From Anaerosolibacter sp. (GTDB lineage Bacteria > Bacillota > Clostridia > Peptostreptococcales > Thermotaleaceae): 64,000 nucleotides of DNA. The notes under the pieces were generated by a model. The model did not search any database. It was not told the origin of the DNA and saw only the letters and a list, made by a program, of their open reading frames with translations. Below are positions 4,100 to 39,909 of this stretch, piece after piece (the first letter of the stretch is position 1; every line of letters starts with the position of its first letter). The translations under genes were made by a program, and so were the position numbers. Where the stretch lies: the NCBI RefSeq assembly GCF_029240175.1, contig NZ_JARBTM010000005.1, forward strand, positions 248,001 to 312,000. Direction: 5' to 3'.

Positions 4100-4308
4100 A
4101 CTGGTATTCATCCCCTTCCTTCATAGAGTTGTCTTAAATGGCCATGATACAAATGTATCTGTGAGCGCTCTAAGAGGGGGCACAAAGTTAGAGAACTGAA
4201 TGTAAAAAACTATATATAAGACTTTTGGCTTATTTATACTTTGTTTAAAAGGAAAAGGCTGAAAAAGGTAGAATAATATCGAAATGACATAAAGTAGATA
4301 TATGATTG

Positions 4309-4390
4309 ATAAAGGCAAACTTATCGAAAGGTAAGGACGCAAAACCATGGATCTAAGGAATGTTTCATTCTATGATTGACAGGTTGCCAA
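4309..4390 (+). promoter_or_regulatory. class I cyclic-di-GMP riboswitch (GEMM-I)
   Basis: The element matches the GEMM-I aptamer point by point. It opens with AAAGGCAAAC. A hairpin follows, CTTATC/GGTAAG, capped by a GAAA tetraloop. Next comes the invariant GGACGCAAA. A second hairpin (GAATG/CATTC) is flanked by TCTAAGG and TATGA, which form the receptor for the tetraloop. It closes with AGGTTGCC, pairing back to GGCAAAC. A terminator follows at 4416-4439 and then the gene at 4464, so cyclic-di-GMP probably controls read-through. Whether the ligand turns expression on or off cannot be decided by eye. Confidence 0.92.
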
Positions 4391-4415
4391 AGACGTTATG
4401 ACACATAATAATGCT

Positions 4416-4463: not shown

Positions 4464-6005
4464 ATGGATCAGACATACATTGATCGTTTTAATATTGATA
4501 ACATTCTTTTAAGAAGTATTAAACAAGATATTTTTGTTGGCACATCCAAAGCAGATTTAAATGATACAGCAGTCATTAATATTATTAAAGACAAAAGTAT
4601 TATATCATCAAAGGATTTAAAGAAGATTAAAAATTCATTGCATAATGTATTGTACCAAGAAAAGATTGATAATGGTGTAGTGTTGGTCACAAAATTTCTT
4701 GCTGGTACTCCTTTGTTAGAGCATTTAAACCAAAATAATTTGAATAAGAAAGATAGGGAACATATACTTTATGAATTTATCAAAGGAATATCTAAATATT
4801 CGAAGTTGGATAAGCCACTAATTAATGTTTTGATTGACGAGACACAAATATTTGTACGAAATGGCATACTTCAGTTTGCAGAACTGATTAAGTGTGATAA
4901 TTTGCTTCAGTCTCCTCAGGAGTTCAAGGCGATAGTAGGAAAAATAGGTGCTGTTTCAAGGAGAATATATACCTATGGATTACCAGAACAACACCAAGAA
5001 AATCTTGTATCTGATAAAATCTTAAAATTCATAGACGATTTAGAAAATGATAAACTGACTGTTAATAATATTGGTGAGATTTTAGATTACTATAAGAGTT
5101 TATATTTCTATAGTACATCATCAAGAACAAAAATTGATCAGGCCTATGGAACTACAAGAAATAAAAGAAGAACATTGAGGAAGCAGGTTAAGAGCCCGAT
5201 TACGAAAATTGCAACAGGACTTTCTATTGTAGTATTGATGACTTGTGCATCCACTATTTTCCAATTACCATATATGCTTCAAGGATTTGTTGTCCAACCA
5301 CCTACTGCATCTTTTGATAAAATTAACATTGCTGATGGATGGAAGTTTATAAACAAGAGTACTGCTGATGGAAGTAACAATATCATTAAAGGATCAGTGT
5401 GGCAAGTTTATAAAAACGATCAAATTATTGATGAGAAAATATCGAAAGATCTTGATATGGACTTTGTAGATCAAGGCACATACAAAGTAATTCTAAAGGT
5501 TCAAGATCAGTATGAAAAATGGAGTGTTCCCTACGAAAAAGAATTTCATATGTTAAAAAATGAGAGACCAGGACCACCACAAGAGACAGCTGGATTTGAA
5601 ACTGAAATCCTCGATAATTATGAGATTATTTATGATAACCCTAGTGATACATTTATAGATAATTCCATATTTAAAAAAGGCAACTGCTCCATCCGATTTG
5701 ATAAAAGTGAAAATGGAAACAACAAGTCTATTGCGATGAAAGATCTAGAACCTAGTAATTACTCTGCTTTTTCAATGTGGGTAATGTCTAATTCTATACA
5801 AACGATTGATTTCGAGATTGAAGGTTATAAAAATGAAAAACTTAACTATCGAAATAGAGTTTCTTTTAAGTTAGTTTCAAGTAATTCTTGGGAAATGCTT
5901 AATATAAATGGAGATATCAGCAATATAGATGAATTGAAAATATCCGTTTTAGACCATGACTCAGCTTTTTGGATTGATGACTTAACATTAGATTTATACA
6001 AATAA
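4464..6005 (+). CDS. riboswitch-controlled membrane protein: degenerate kinase-like domain, one TM helix, PKD-like and beta-sandwich-like extracellular part
   Basis: 513 residues. Residues 1-215 look like a worn protein-kinase fold: a beta-rich start, a hinge-like VTKFLAGTPLLEHL at about 75-88 and a stretch INVLIDETQIFVRNGILQFA at about 121-140 where a catalytic loop would be, but no HRD or DFG is present. A basic region (about 225-245) leads into one membrane helix (248-270). Outside, residues 290-362 resemble a PKD domain, with WKFINKST and GTYKVILKVQDQYEKWS. Residues 375-513 form a beta-rich domain reminiscent of carbohydrate-binding sandwiches. The upstream cyclic-di-GMP riboswitch suggests a surface role in attachment or motility change. 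The domain calls are inference. Confidence 0.75.
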   Translation: MDQTYIDRFNIDNILLRSIKQDIFVGTSKADLNDTAVINIIKDKSIISSKDLKKIKNSLHNVLYQEKIDNGVVLVTKFLAGTPLLEHLNQNNLNKKDREHILYEFIKGISKYSKLDKPLINVLIDETQIFVRNGILQFAELIKCDNLLQSPQEFKAIVGKIGAVSRRIYTYGLPEQHQENLVSDKILKFIDDLENDKLTVNNIGEILDYYKSLYFYSTSSRTKIDQAYGTTRNKRRTLRKQVKSPITKIATGLSIVVLMTCASTIFQLPYMLQGFVVQPPTASFDKINIADGWKFINKSTADGSNNIIKGSVWQVYKNDQIIDEKISKDLDMDFVDQGTYKVILKVQDQYEKWSVPYEKEFHMLKNERPGPPQETAGFETEILDNYEIIYDNPSDTFIDNSIFKKGNCSIRFDKSENGNNKSIAMKDLEPSNYSAFSMWVMSNSIQTIDFEIEGYKNEKLNYRNRVSFKLVSSNSWEMLNINGDISNIDELKISVLDHDSAFWIDDLTLDLYK

Positions 6006-14478: not shown

Positions 14479-14672
14479 ATGCAACCTCCTATCAATATCT
14501 CCAGTCTAAGTTTATTATATCAAAAACAATTTATAGAATGTTAAATTTTGATTTTGATTTGTAAATAGCCGATAGGCAACTTTGATCTCAAATGATTTTC
14601 AATAAAAAAATATGCGTATTTACTCAATTTTGTGGTAGATATAGAATATAAATAAACAAAGGGGTGATGACA

Positions 14673-15098
14673 ATGTTGGAACTTCCCAAAATTAAAAATG
14701 GTACTTCTATTGTTATCCAAAGAGAAATCAAAGAGGAAGACACGGCTTTAAACTATGGTAGTGGAAGGTTAGAAAACCTATTGGCTACGCCATCCTTGAT
14801 TGCATTAATGATAGAGGGGGCTGTAAAACTGGTGGATGACAAGCTCCCCGATGGTGTGATTACCGTTGGAAAAATGATTCAAATCGAACACCAAAAGCCA
14901 ACAGGATTAGGTGCAACAGTCAGCGTAAAGGTAGTGGTGAAAGAATTTGACGGTGCAAGAATCCTATTTGACATTCAAGCTTATGATGAGATCGGTATGA
15001 TTGGTAGCGGTAGTCATGAAAGATGGATTGTTAACAAAAACTCTTTGCTTCAAAGAGCAACAGAGAGAGCGGAAAAACTGAAAAATAAAGATTTCTAA
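14673..15098 (+). CDS. FlK-like hot-dog fold thioesterase
   Basis: 141 residues. The order fits the fluoroacetyl-CoA thioesterase-like hot-dog family: LATPSLIALMIEGAVKLVDD as the central helix, GKMIQIEHQKPTGLGATVSV with the conserved His-x-x-x-Thr, and the closing strands GSGSHERWIVN. These enzymes hydrolyse short acyl-CoA thioesters or act as acyl-CoA binding proteins. The start is the third possible one, six bases after AAAGGGGTG. Substrate unknown. Its terminator is at 15109-15140. Confidence 0.85.
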   Translation: MLELPKIKNGTSIVIQREIKEEDTALNYGSGRLENLLATPSLIALMIEGAVKLVDDKLPDGVITVGKMIQIEHQKPTGLGATVSVKVVVKEFDGARILFDIQAYDEIGMIGSGSHERWIVNKNSLLQRATERAEKLKNKDF

Positions 15099-15108
15099 TG
15101 GATACACG

Positions 15109-15140
15109 AATGCTGCATATTGATGCAGCATTCTCCTTTT
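15109..15140 (+). terminator. terminator of the thioesterase gene
   Basis: AATGCTGCAT (15109-15118) pairs with ATGCAGCATT (15123-15132), loop ATTG, followed by CTCCTTTT. Confidence 0.85.
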
Positions 15141-15178
15141 ATTTAATAGGAAAGTTCTCCTTTCCTATTAAATAAAAG
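15136..15178. repeat. 19-bp perfect hairpin
   Basis: Arms 15136-15154 and 15160-15178 are perfectly complementary around TTCTC. The hairpin begins at the end of the thioesterase terminator and is followed directly by the GC-rich block at 15182. It is AT-rich, so it could be a second terminator or the border of an inserted element. Confidence 0.7.
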
Positions 15179-15181
15179 ATT

Positions 15182-15290
15182 AGGGGTGCAGGGGAAGTAT
15201 TCCCATGCCGTAGTCAGAGGGGTGCTCAGGCTGCCTAGCAGCCGTCGAAGGGGAACTAGGTTCCCCTAGCGAAGGCATCGAATATGGGTT
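15182..15290 (+). ncRNA. GC-rich structured leader or element upstream of the diguanylate cyclase
   Basis: About 110 bases of markedly higher GC than the neighbourhood with nested palindromes: GGGAA/TTCCC near 15195, GGCTGC/GCAGCC with CTA loop at about 15231-15245, GGGGAAC/GTTCCCC with TAG loop at about 15255-15271, and an outer ATGCC/GGCAT pairing near 15206 and 15280. It does not match the cyclic-di-GMP aptamers I know. It may be an unknown cis-acting RNA of the gene at 15330, or the end of a lost IS200/IS605-type element whose RNA is structured in this way. Confidence 0.4.
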
Positions 15291-15329
15291 AAGGACATAT
15301 GATGAAGAAAAATGAGGGAGGGTATACCC

Positions 15330-16883
15330 ATGAAGATAGGAATTAGAATGAAAATGAGCCTCACGATGCTAATATTAATCAGTATTCCTATCTATGTGCT
15401 GGGGGCCTCATCCTATGGAAAAGCAAAAGAGATATTGATCCAAGAGTTAAATGAGGTGAATCTTAGAACCATAGAACATATGAATGATTTTTTTATCCAT
15501 CACTACATGGAAGAAATAGAATCTACTGTAGATATTTTTTCAAGTGATCCAGCGCTGGTTGAATCACTAACTGCTGAATCAAATAGCTTAAATGTGACAG
15601 CGGATTGGGAGATCATTCGAAAACTTAATTCAGACCTTTGGCATGTTGTGGTTGGGACAAGCAAGGGCGAAATTTATGTCGTTCCAGATTGGCTGCCGCC
15701 CAATGGGTACAATCCCATCATTCGGCCTTGGTATGCAGCTGCCATGAAGGAAAAGGGGAAAATCGCTTGGAGCGAACCCTATGAAGAATTGGTTACTCAC
15801 GAGACGGTAATCAGTGCCTCAAAGACCATAGAAAATCAACAGGGTGAAGTTGTAGGGGTGTTTGCGATCAATACCTCCCTCCAAAAACTTTCAATGGCAG
15901 TAGAAGGGACGAATCTGGGAGATGGTGGATATATGATGATTTTAGATCAAAATGGACAGATTATCGCCCATCCCGATGAAAATGCCTTAGGAAATACAGT
16001 GATTCAGCAGGGGTGGTATTCCTCCTTAACGAAAGGGAAAGATGCATTTTATGCAACCGTAGGCGGCAAGGGTGTATTTATAAGTTATATGACGATTCCA
16101 AAAACTGGATGGAAGATCGTCGCATTGATGCCGAAGGAAACTTTGGAAAGGGAGGTTGAACCAATACGACAGCGGACAATCTCCATCGCTCTGATTAGTG
16201 GACTTTCTGCTGTGTTGGTAGGCATATTTTTCTCCCATACATTGGTGGGAAGAATCAAAAAAATTATGGAATATATGGGACAGGTTGAAAGCGGCAATAT
16301 GAAAGATCACTATCATTGCCGGGGAAATGATGAGATTTCTGAGCTGAATAGGAAGTTTAACCAAATGGTTGATACGCTGAATCATACAATGACAGAAATG
16401 GAGAAAATGGTTATGCTGGATGGATTGACAAAGATATACAATCATAAGTATATGTATGAACGTCTTGACCAAGAAATACAAGAAGCTAAGCGATATGGGA
16501 AACATTTGACCGTAATCATGGTGGATATAGATCATTTTAAGAAAGTAAACGATGTGTATGGCCATCAGGTTGGTGACCATGTGTTGTCTAAACTGGCGAT
16601 GTTCATAAAGGATAATCTAAGGAGTATGGATATTGTGGGCAGGTATGGAGGCGAAGAATTCATGATCATTTTACCAGAGACAGCATTAGCACAAGGTTAT
16701 ATGGTGGCGGATAAGATACGGCAGTTGGTTGAATCCATGGAATGGGAGGAAAAAAATCTGAAAATCACCATAAGTGGCGGCGTTACAGCGTGGATGGATG
16801 AGGGTGCATTGAAAATGGTAAAAAAGGCGGATGATCTACTATATCAGGCAAAAAAGAACGGAAGAAATAGAATAGAGCAATGA
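15330..16883 (+). CDS. diguanylate cyclase with Cache sensor and HAMP domain
   Basis: 517 residues. A membrane helix at about 8-30, an extracellular dCache-type sensor at 35-280 (with IRPWYAAAMKEKGKIAWSEPY, typical for it), a second helix at 282-305, HAMP at about 305-355, then GGDEF at about 360-517. The catalytic motif GGEEF is intact and an inhibitory site RSMD lies five residues before it, so an active, feedback-controlled cyclase is expected. It turns two GTP into cyclic-di-GMP in response to an external ligand. ATG chosen after GGGAGGG. The product is the ligand of the riboswitch at 4309. Confidence 0.93.
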   Translation: MKIGIRMKMSLTMLILISIPIYVLGASSYGKAKEILIQELNEVNLRTIEHMNDFFIHHYMEEIESTVDIFSSDPALVESLTAESNSLNVTADWEIIRKLNSDLWHVVVGTSKGEIYVVPDWLPPNGYNPIIRPWYAAAMKEKGKIAWSEPYEELVTHETVISASKTIENQQGEVVGVFAINTSLQKLSMAVEGTNLGDGGYMMILDQNGQIIAHPDENALGNTVIQQGWYSSLTKGKDAFYATVGGKGVFISYMTIPKTGWKIVALMPKETLEREVEPIRQRTISIALISGLSAVLVGIFFSHTLVGRIKKIMEYMGQVESGNMKDHYHCRGNDEISELNRKFNQMVDTLNHTMTEMEKMVMLDGLTKIYNHKYMYERLDQEIQEAKRYGKHLTVIMVDIDHFKKVNDVYGHQVGDHVLSKLAMFIKDNLRSMDIVGRYGGEEFMIILPETALAQGYMVADKIRQLVESMEWEEKNLKITISGGVTAWMDEGALKMVKKADDLLYQAKKNGRNRIEQ

Positions 16884-17733: not shown

Positions 17734-19104
17734 ATGAATTTGCCAAAGGATTTTTTAGAGAAAATGCGGTTTCTGTTAAAAGATGAATATGAGGGTTTTA
17801 TAGCCAGCTATAGGGAGAACAAATTGCAAGGACTACGTGTTAATACACTAAAGATATCGGTAAAAGACTTTTTAAAACAGAATGTATTTCAATTAGAGCC
17901 TATTCCTTGGGTAGGGGAAGGGTTTTATTATCCTGTTGAGGAGAGGCCAGGTAAACATCCATTTCATGAGGCCGGATTATATTATATTCAGGAGCCCAGT
18001 GCTATGGCAGTAGGAGCTGCCCTTGATCCTCAGCCAGGGGAACGTGTGTTAGACCTTTGTGGAGCACCCGGAGGGAAATCCACCCATATTGCAGCTAGGC
18101 TTAATAATGAAGGATTTTTGCTCGCCAATGAAATCCATCCTGCCAGGGCGAAAATTCTAGCCCAGAATGTGGAACGGATGGGTATCAAAAACTGCGTAGT
18201 AACCAATGAAACCCCTGAAAAGTTAGCCCACCGATTTCCAAGATATTTTCACAGGATTCTAGTAGATGCTCCATGCTCTGGAGAAGGAATGTTTCGAAAG
18301 GACCCAGATGCTTGTGAAGAGTGGAGTTTAGAGAATGTAGCCTTGTGTGCGAATCGGCAGCTTCAAATATTGGAGGAAGCAGGAAAGATGCTGATGCCTG
18401 GGGGGCGATTGGTATACTCTACGTGTACATTTTCACCAGAGGAGAATGAAGGGGTTATTGACCAATTTCTAAAGAAGCATCCTGAATATTCTGTAGAGGC
18501 TGTAGTATCACATGAAGGCTTCAAACCCGGAAGAAAAGAGTGGATACAAACAGATAATACGTCCATTGAAAAGACAATACGGTTATGGCCCCATCACCTA
18601 AAAGGAGAAGGGCACTATGTGGCAGTACTAACCAAAAATGATGGTGAGGGCCCAGAAAAAATAAAGACTATAGAAAAGTCAGTAGATCGTAAGCTGTTGA
18701 AGGATTATTTTGATTTTGGGGAAGCATATTTAAATGAAACACCAGAAGGTGAATACATATTATTTGGGGAGCAATTATATATTATACCTAAGGAGATGGT
18801 ACGCCTAGAGAAGTTAAAAGTACTTCGCCCTGGATGGCATTTAGGAGCCATCAAGAAAAATCGATTTGAGCCATCCCATGCCTTGGCACTATCTTTGAAA
18901 GAAGAGGATTGTAAGTTCAATATCAGCTTCGAGATAGGCGACGATCTACTACTTGCCTATCTAAAGGGTGAGTCGTTAAATGTAGAAGGACACAAGGGTT
19001 GGAATCTTGTTCATGTAGAAGGCTATTCATTGGGTTGGGGCAAACTGGCAGATCAGGTGTTAAAAAATCATTATCCCAAAGGCTTAAGGTGGTCAGGGAT
19101 GTAA
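17734..19104 (+). CDS. RsmF-type RNA (cytosine-5) methyltransferase
   Basis: 456 residues. The N-terminal part holds the GLRVNTLK and YYIQEPSAMAVGA segments of the NOL1/NOP2/Sun family. The AdoMet loop is LDLCGAPGGKSTHIA. The two catalytic cysteines are in DAPCSGEGMFRKD (motif IV) and YSTCTFSPEENEG (motif VI). The C-terminal 150 residues match the RsmF extension with a PUA-like end. It makes m5C in rRNA or tRNA. First gene of an RNA-modification cluster (gaps of 25 and 35 bases). A paralogue lies at 38551. Confidence 0.92.
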   Translation: MNLPKDFLEKMRFLLKDEYEGFIASYRENKLQGLRVNTLKISVKDFLKQNVFQLEPIPWVGEGFYYPVEERPGKHPFHEAGLYYIQEPSAMAVGAALDPQPGERVLDLCGAPGGKSTHIAARLNNEGFLLANEIHPARAKILAQNVERMGIKNCVVTNETPEKLAHRFPRYFHRILVDAPCSGEGMFRKDPDACEEWSLENVALCANRQLQILEEAGKMLMPGGRLVYSTCTFSPEENEGVIDQFLKKHPEYSVEAVVSHEGFKPGRKEWIQTDNTSIEKTIRLWPHHLKGEGHYVAVLTKNDGEGPEKIKTIEKSVDRKLLKDYFDFGEAYLNETPEGEYILFGEQLYIIPKEMVRLEKLKVLRPGWHLGAIKKNRFEPSHALALSLKEEDCKFNISFEIGDDLLLAYLKGESLNVEGHKGWNLVHVEGYSLGWGKLADQVLKNHYPKGLRWSGM

Positions 19105-38550: not shown

Positions 38551-39909
38551 ATGCAGCTGCCAATAGATTTTTTAAAGAGAATGAAGTCTTTGCTAGGGGA
38601 TGAGTATGAAGATTTTATTCGATCCTATGATGGATCAAAGTATCAAGGCTTAAGGATCAATACATTGAAAATATCTGTGGATGAATTTCAGAAAAGATCT
38701 CCATTTTCCTTAAAACCCATTCCTTGGACAAAGGATGGTTTTTATTATGAAGAAGGAGAGCGGCCTGCAAAACACCCATACTATCATGCTGGATTATATT
38801 ATATACAAGAACCCAGTGCCATGGCGCCGGCATCTGTGTTAGATGTTGTGCCAGGGGATAAGGTGTTGGACCTTTGTGCAGCACCTGGAGGGAAAACAGT
38901 ACAGCTTGCAGCAAAGCTCAAAGATAAGGGGATTCTTGTTACGAATGATATCAATTTACAGAGGGTTAAGGCCTTGATTAAAAATGTTGAGTTGTTTGGG
39001 ATTAAAAATGCTATCGTCACCAATGAAAGTCCTGAGAAGTTAACAAGATATTTCTCAAGATATTTTGATAAAATTCTAGTCGATGCCCCGTGTTCTGGAG
39101 AAGGAATGTTTCGCAAGGATGAAAAAATGGTGAAAAGCTGGGAACGACAAGGCGTTGAGCCCTATGTGGCCATGCAGCGCAGTATCATGGACTGTGTGGA
39201 TGGGATGCTGGACGCTGACGGAGAATTATTGTATTCTACGTGTACTTTTTCTCCTGAAGAAAATGAAGGAATTATCGAGGAGTTTATATCAAACCACGAA
39301 AATTATATGATTCGTCCTATATCTAAGGCTTTGGGTTTTGATGAAGGGAGACCTCAATGGGTTTCAGGCAGAGAAACCTTAAGGGGGAGTGCGCGGCTGT
39401 GGCCCCACAGGCTAGAAGGAGAAGGACATTTTTTAGCCTGGTTAAAAAAAGGACATGATTTGTTAAGAGAGATAAATGCCAAGGGAACAGATGCAATAAA
39501 GGCACCTAAATTATTTGCTGCTTTTGTGGAAGAAAACTTGAATGTTCAGCTGGAAGGCTGTTTTGAGATACATAATGATCAATTATATTTATTGCCCGAT
39601 GGATTACCACCTTTAAAAGGTTTGAAAATTTTAAGATCGGGATGGTTGCTCGGAAGCTTAAAAAAAGATAGATTTGAGCCAAGCCAGGCCATGGCCATGG
39701 CATTATCTCGTACGGATGCCACGAGAACAGTAAATTTCAAAGTCAGCGATCCAATGATTGTCAAATATCTAAAAGGAGAGACATTGGATATCGAAGGGGA
39801 GAAGGGCTGGACCTTGGTATGTGTAGATGACTTTCCAGTGGGATGGGCGAAGCAGACGGGTACCATGTTAAAAAACTATTATCCACCTGCTTGGAGATGG
39901 ATAGATTAG
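38551..39909 (+). CDS. RsmF-type RNA (cytosine-5) methyltransferase, second copy
   Basis: 452 residues, collinear along its whole length with the protein at 17734. It has the same motifs: GLRINTLKIS, YYIQEPSAMAPAS, LDLCAAPGGKTVQLA, both catalytic cysteines in DAPCSGEGMFRKD and YSTCTFSPEENEG, and the RsmF-type C-terminus with GWLLGSLKKDRFEPS. So it should also make m5C, perhaps at a different RNA site. AGGGGAGAT site. The rsuA-like gene begins nine bases after it, so the two form an operon. Confidence 0.92.
   Translation: MQLPIDFLKRMKSLLGDEYEDFIRSYDGSKYQGLRINTLKISVDEFQKRSPFSLKPIPWTKDGFYYEEGERPAKHPYYHAGLYYIQEPSAMAPASVLDVVPGDKVLDLCAAPGGKTVQLAAKLKDKGILVTNDINLQRVKALIKNVELFGIKNAIVTNESPEKLTRYFSRYFDKILVDAPCSGEGMFRKDEKMVKSWERQGVEPYVAMQRSIMDCVDGMLDADGELLYSTCTFSPEENEGIIEEFISNHENYMIRPISKALGFDEGRPQWVSGRETLRGSARLWPHRLEGEGHFLAWLKKGHDLLREINAKGTDAIKAPKLFAAFVEENLNVQLEGCFEIHNDQLYLLPDGLPPLKGLKILRSGWLLGSLKKDRFEPSQAMAMALSRTDATRTVNFKVSDPMIVKYLKGETLDIEGEKGWTLVCVDDFPVGWAKQTGTMLKNYYPPAWRWID

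Follow-up and report, generated by a model that had tools for sequence, protein, structure and literature searches.

Locus and structure of the element

The window, by which we mean the whole analysed stretch of 64,000 nucleotides from Anaerosolibacter sp. (genome G000 below), carries a structured element between genes for a thioesterase and a diguanylate cyclase. The element unit spans approximately positions 15136-15280. The features of the locus are as follows.

14664..15098, +, upstream host gene, an ORF encoding an FlK-type thioesterase (Pfam FlK, E 1.5e-30)
15108..15133, +, host intrinsic terminator hairpin (terminator scan; present in the element-free genome G001 as 'GATGCTGCATTTCAATGCAGCATTTTCCTTTATAG')
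15136..15178, +, stem P1; the left arm (15136-15154) merges with the host T-tract, the right arm (15160-15178) is its exact reverse complement
15174..15255, +, match to RF02937, Clostridiales-2 RNA (79.6 bits, gathering cut-off 58.6)
15188..15208, +, core hairpin P2 (covariation)
15214..15229, +, conserved linker ahead of P3, with an invariant TCAG at 15226-15229 (alignment of copies)
15229..15243, +, core hairpin P3 (covariation)
15250..15266, +, core hairpin P4 (covariation); the Rfam match stops within its 5' strand
15274..15280, +, GGCATCG, remnant of the element's own terminator P5; set against 42 other G000 copies, the 3' stem half and T-run are absent
15330..16883, +, downstream gene, a Cache-HAMP-GGDEF diguanylate cyclase (Pfam GGDEF, E 7e-46)

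The inverted repeat of P1 (15136-15154 and 15160-15178) is perfect over 19 bp, as an earlier note on this DNA had it. The GC-rich part, described there as nested palindromes with an outer pairing, consists of the three hairpins P2, P3, and P4; the outer pairing is weaker and is seen as a short extension around P4 in the minimum-energy fold. The fold of positions 15136-15290 has a predicted energy of -62.9 kcal/mol versus -43.8 ± 3.8 kcal/mol in 200 shuffles (z -5.0), none of which was equally low. The distance of about 40 bases to the cyclase, also given in the note, is right if the gene starts at the ATG at 15330, which is conserved in the congener G001; the longer ORF start at 15312 is disfavoured. 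A simple scan yielded no sigma-70-type promoter near this copy.

The element had been judged not to be a cyclic-di-GMP aptamer, and indeed there is no Rfam hit to one at 15090-15335 even at E 5. The only c-di-GMP-I riboswitch hit in the window lies at 4304-4391 on the forward strand (83.3 bits), before a 513-aa ORF at 4464-6005. Elsewhere, the window contains two similar genes that by eye are rRNA-methyltransferase-like (17734-19104 and 38551-39909), 20 kb apart.

An Rfam scan, a covariation alignment, and a search of related genomes had been proposed as checks. The scan assigns the element to RF02937, as the window copy matches at 15174-15255 with a score well above the cut-off. The model has 82 positions, covering the right arm of P1, P2, and P3 and ending within the 5' strand of P4; it includes neither the left arm of P1 nor P5. 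The family's source is probably Weinberg and others (2017).

The hairpins P2-P4 covary in an alignment of 26 diverse copies. In these copies 95.7% of cells pair, versus 82.4% in shuffles, 78 cells versus 21 are changed on both sides, and the covariation score is 0.450 versus 0.186; none of 500 shuffles was as high in any of the three. The signal is lost when the partner column is shifted by one to three columns. Cruder covariation measures are less clear, with 12 pairs showing two-sided change versus 9.3 in shuffles (24 of 500 shuffles) and 24 further pair types versus 23.4 (237 of 500). From the 34 sequences selected for this alignment, nine (L018, L020, L062, L069, L102, L119, L123, L232, and L253) were excluded as truncated, rearranged, or diverged, and L053 was added.

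We aligned 43 copies from the window's own genome and examined the surroundings of 72 hits in other genomes (five of them duplicates), the latter being among the best-scoring hits and not a random sample. The core-less G000 copies L063 and L064 and the five duplicate loci L013-L017 were dropped. Full-length copies have the order gene, host terminator hairpin, T-tract, P1, P2, linker (..GGTGCTCAG..), P3, P4, and P5 with a T-run. The interior of P1 varies by subfamily from a 3-nt loop to more than 70 nt, and some copies have no P1. The window copy has lost its own 3' terminator, namely the 3' half of P5, and its sequence stops at GGCATCG (15280). This loss, the upstream host terminator at 15108-15133, and the multi-copy nature of the element all go beyond the earlier note.

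Some copies have features of their own. In L102 (G007:C67:16381), P1 is a perfect 27-bp hairpin, its apparent subfamily mates carrying a 70-nt loop, and it looks like a template-switch product. The truncated copy L184 (G001:C39:34768) has the 3' end AAGGAGG a few bases before an ATG, so that a gene which by eye is exopolyphosphatase-like seems to take its ribosome-binding site from the element. Two G000 copies without P1, L053 and L055, have in common a 63-nt stretch beside the core, in opposite orientation, that starts like another left end (TTTATTGTCTTAG) and is perhaps a further element type.

The search of genomes revealed many copies. With positions 15100-15340 as the query, blast gave 64 rows in G000, most of them with 84-97% identity, which fall at no fewer than 40 distinct places; 23 of the 64 rows are the P1 palindrome matching the opposite strand, and the 40 places are a lower bound, since they come from scoring 40 of 68 first-look candidates. 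Hits to RF02937 number 43 in G000, at least 63 in G001, at least 63 in G013, 34 in G007, 32 in G011, and 22 in G034. Their spread is patchy: under strict filters, and with the own genome counted in both sets, they occur in 13 of 59 relatives and 22 of 245 genomes of the class, and in none of 14 control genomes. There was no blastn match in plasmid and phage collections, and viral contigs matched neither one exact core pattern nor one exact left-end pattern. Copies of the own genome have no common flanks at E 1e-6 when the 40 nt adjoining the element are excluded, with the exception of the L053/L055 stretch beside the core.

The repeat sits behind pre-existing host terminators

The orientation of the repeat is constant, and its place is immediately after an intrinsic terminator that the host already had, at the T-tract. 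A helix ends at most 4 nt before the T-tract in 81 of the 95 analysable copies (13 of 108 were not analysable), versus 317 of the 771 other runs of at least five T that these loci contain, and 38% of shuffles, by the same criterion; the remaining 14 copies have no helix at the T-tract. By a crude ORF call, and with five duplicate rows included, the upstream gene has the direction of the element in 88 of 115 rows and the opposite one in 24, and three rows have no such gene. Some copies, for example L019, lie directly behind a coding region.

Several sites could be compared between genomes. Between coaBC and priA, G000 and G001 hold different subfamilies at the same point and behind the same terminator. 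Searching the coaBC loci of 19 other genomes with the core model, we found a copy in G001 only and none in the other 18; the site in G005 is a bare terminator, the one in G023 has an apparent left-stem remnant, and the neighbour gene or the spacing differs in some genomes. The lysS site has the core in none of 19 loci (two of which are paralogue or partial matches), and the terminator is retained in G001 and G005 without the element. There is also no core in six loci of relatives corresponding to the window locus. G001 and G005 lack the element at both glyQS and mpp-dut, and G011 has none at the site that L101 occupies in G007. L074 holds two elements, of which the second lies behind the terminator of the first, now decayed. 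Since relatives have empty sites with the same terminators, the host terminators came first. The scattered copies and the matching empty sites make the repeat a dispersed, non-autonomous (MITE-like) mobile element; the earlier note had reasoned that copies scattered without gene linkage would favour a mobile origin, and it was for mobility that the comparison came out.

Target-site duplications looked promising by eye and proved weak by permutation, with p of approximately 0.02-0.05 for most measures, 0.16 for one, and no significance in single genomes; one test left out 17 of 108 copies plus nine subfamily rows, the other 29 of 108. Hence, we do not claim them. In the right flanks of L127 and L072, left-end sequence (TTTTTTACTTACTAGGAAATTATA, TTTTTATTGTCTAAA) occurs again directly behind the right terminator. 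These are either solo left ends, such as the one that constitutes L175, or long target duplications.

The same comparison bears on the suggestion, made in the earlier note, that the element could be a regulatory RNA of the cyclase. The element is structured and lies 40-50 bp before the cyclase start; still, it is extremely improbable that it is a conserved regulatory leader of this gene. G001 has the identical order of thioesterase, terminator, and cyclase, with the same terminator hairpin and no element, which rules out the leader as a conserved feature. In G005, G007, and G011, about 135-175 bp separate the thioesterase match from that of a HAD hydrolase, which in the window's genome is found beyond the cyclase; this leaves no room for a cyclase in between. 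Other copies of the element adjoin and precede unrelated genes. Judged by these gene orders, the cyclase is a bystander. The window copy may possibly have a private effect on it, for example via the lost terminator.

The stem P1 and the host T-tract

The right arm of P1, an A-rich segment of the element itself, is complementary in each copy to the T-tract of that copy's host site. In 23 copies from G000, a copy's own arms pair at 11.30 of 12 positions on average, versus 9.91 with the left arms of other copies, and the perfect extension of own arms is 11.43 versus 4.66 nt, neither value being reached in 20,000 permutations; the window copy and L029 are badly anchored in this test, which counts against the result. 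Arms also match in G001 (13 copies; 2 of 20,000 permutations). The effect is weaker in G007 and G011 taken together (14 copies; 3 of 20,000 for extension and 534 of 20,000 for matches), and weak in six mixed copies (about 160-198 of 20,000). In G013, P1 is copy-specific even in copies with a non-palindromic P1 loop.

At the mpp-dut site, the sequence is CTTTTTCAT in the two relatives without the element and CTTTTTCATT where it is present; the right arm of the element reads AATGAAAAAG, with a G opposite the host C. As the host tract is present in the empty relatives, it can predate the insertion. At the window locus, the host C before the T-tract is also found in the empty G001, and the element has a G where most copies have an A. 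The right arm departs from the consensus at 22 of 282 positions, versus 39 of 1594 in the core (Fisher p 3e-5; 19 own copies, being 22 hand-picked ones minus three with a truncated core). In L035, there are no departures in 84 core positions and three in 15 right-arm positions. The higher departure rate of the right arm means that it is rewritten faster than the element diverges.

The likeliest cause of arm matching is template switching, which, according to PMC8794818, can rewrite the arms of imperfect inverted repeats. Alternatively, the arm could be templated at the time of insertion, with a single-stranded A-rich segment pairing with the target T-tract and being copied from it, similarly to the EBS1-IBS1 guide-target pairing of group II introns. 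This would agree with the single orientation and the hairpin-plus-T-tract target, with the copy-specific P1 of G013 copies that have a non-palindromic loop, with the matching of host bases older than the insertion, and with the contrast between core and right arm in L035. However, template switching after insertion covers the same data by a known process (PMC8794818), and we regard templating at insertion as doubtful. Its most far-reaching form, which we offer as a speculation, would be a terminator-targeted rolling-circle transposition in which the A-rich segment is re-templated at each insertion and the "sRNA family" is the folded body of the transposon system; if this is true, every copy is a reverse-complement record of its own landing site. 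The target-matched stem of each copy makes target-templated insertion and later template-switch repair directly testable against each other. It also means that covariation in such a stem alone is no proof of selection on the RNA.

Candidate mover and origin of the repeat

By querying with the left end of a long-loop repeat copy, we found four core-less loci in G007 (L181, L261, L262, and L265) that contain the same 300-350 nt behind a T-tract and the left end. All four run off contig ends, beyond which the right end of these copies lies. Their body encodes the N-terminus of a protein with the zinc-binding domain Zn_Tnp_IS91 (PF14319, E 4.4e-16). Repeat copy L103, also from G007, agrees with their left end at every one of the first 29 nt, and matches of 87-97% to this end are seen in many repeat copies from other genomes. 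In L265, the P5 terminator of a repeat copy immediately precedes the start of the IS91-like element. Two viral contigs carry relatives, one of them intact (L283, 402 aa, with PF14319 at E 1e-24 and the Y2_Tnp domain PF04986 at E 8e-43) and the other frameshifted (L284). Both have at the right end a hairpin followed by TTTTTTAT, similar to P5 of the repeat; the best match, between L284 and repeat copy L121, is a short resemblance (23 nt at 96%, E 3e-4), and the match of L283 has an E of only 0.05. Five of the six IS91-like copies, namely the four from G007 together with L283 and L284, are located directly behind a hairpin and T-tract, the exception being L181. The IS91-like element was seen in G007 and the two viral contigs only, and none was found within the examined loci of the window's genome; RF02937 was not found inside the IS91-like copies. 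In L262 (positions 1515-1625), a near-complement of its own left end (ACAGTAAAAA) lies about 90 nt inside the IS91-like element, which, by eye, may form a P1-like stem too.

Given the common left end, the similar right-end hairpin, and the same target, the repeat appears to be a non-autonomous partner of IS91-like elements that target terminators. Our main reading, to which we assign a probability of roughly 0.77, is that the window stretch is a non-autonomous mobile repeat with a Clostridiales-2 body, targeted to terminators and moved in trans by IS91-like elements. It would be a small repeat of about 145-200 bp, with the structured RNA as its body. The IS91-like elements would move it as a single strand, by rolling-circle transposition aimed at terminators. 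An insertion that lies behind one terminator and brings a second would be nearly harmless, as the gene and its terminator would remain intact, and this would explain the tens of copies per genome. The right arm of P1 would then come to match the host tract through rewriting, with template switching as replication passes over the palindrome as the likeliest cause.

A rival to this reading is that the same terminator-targeted repeat is moved by something other than IS91-like elements, the shared left end being due to capture or to coincidence in T-rich sequence. In its favour, the IS91-like copies were seen in one high-copy genome only, and RF02937 is absent from them; set against this are the 29 identical nucleotides beside a T-tract within the same genome, the matches of 87-97% to the left ends of repeat copies in other genomes, the same target, and a similar right-end hairpin. 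We therefore think a different mover unlikely. Much less likely is that the copies are resident small-RNA genes that arose by ordinary duplication and were kept in 3' regions for their function as a back-up terminator or a source of sRNA. The core does covary, intact copies carry a terminator, and Rfam classes the family as sRNA. However, own-genome copies have no common flanks at the threshold and exclusion given above, empty sites keep intact terminators, and different subfamilies occupy one site. Function and mobility of the repeat are not exclusive.

The other option of the earlier note was that a lost element of IS200/IS605 type, with a structured RNA, had left its end here. Mobility and the structured RNA have been borne out; the family and the "end" have not, since the left end is common to an IS91-like element in G007, and the repeat forms a small unit in itself, from which the window copy differs by a single 3' deletion. 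More generally, derivation from an IS200/IS605 or REP/RAYT system (Y1 transposase) or from a group II intron has very little probability in our view. It is suggested by the short, hairpin-bearing form of the repeat, by Y1 matches in 17 of 18 genomes, and, for introns, by the choice of terminators reported for group IIC introns in PMC4424553. Yet six genomes have 43 Y1 matches between them, and the 16 of these regions that we inspected contain no repeat copy; Y1 and element numbers also disagree, as G008 and G006, both element-free, have 10 and nine Y1 matches, whereas G013 has two and at least 63 elements. Counts of RF00029 do not track the copy number of the repeat either, as G013 has none and G005, with one element, has 16 sub-threshold hits; accordingly, both Y1 linkage and a group II intron as the driver were rejected. 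RF00029 (domain V/VI) has no hit in the window.

Group II introns were encountered in two other contexts. In L040 (G000:C37:122534-122749, minus strand), the 3' end of a group II intron (RF00029) abuts a repeat copy inside the left arm of P1, and the contig ends within the intron; this is a separate intron interrupting an element copy. The 16 sub-threshold RF00029 hits of G005 (contigs C1, C33, C35, C55, C76, C78, and others), 14 of them with equal score and several about 50 bases from the contig start, represent copies of one group II intron, multiplied within G005.

Our literature search returned nothing on the Clostridiales-2 family, on repeats that target terminators, or on terminators as sites of IS91-like elements, and a remark in the source paper is possible. 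The RNA family itself is known; the terminator targeting, the target-matched stem, and the IS91 link, all read from sequence comparisons, are apparently new. If the main reading is right, a mobile repeat for which transcription terminators serve as safe harbours has as its body an RNA family classed as sRNA, and the choice of terminators, documented for group IIC introns, would extend to the IS91-like elements pointed at here.

Among known systems, the Bacillus cereus repeats bcr1-bcr18 resemble the repeat in size and copy number: they are described as dispersed, 100-400 bp long, present in tens of copies, and with mobile features and a TTTAT motif (PMC6542083). The available part of that source does not describe terminator adjacency or a target-matched stem, and the sequence relation was compared through Rfam alone. 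The Clostridiales-2 family (RF02937) has the same sequence and P2/P3 structure as the element, although the Rfam entry presents it as an sRNA gene and shows nothing on repeats, mobility, or terminators. Group IIC introns, like the element, insert behind intrinsic terminators, at whose DNA motifs they are reported to integrate (PMC4424553); unlike them, the element has neither domain V (RF00029) nor a reverse transcriptase.

Classical IS91 inserts beside a short fixed sequence and is not known to make a target-site duplication. By contrast, the target here is a hairpin with a T-tract, and the repeat has no transposase. The IS91 family is characterized by HUH, Y2 transposases and by rolling-circle replication from oriIS to terIS (PMC6218425). 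The Zn_Tnp_IS91 element of G007 has the left end of the repeat and its terminator target, and L283, with its intact Zn_Tnp_IS91 and Y2_Tnp protein, has a right-end hairpin similar to that of the repeat.
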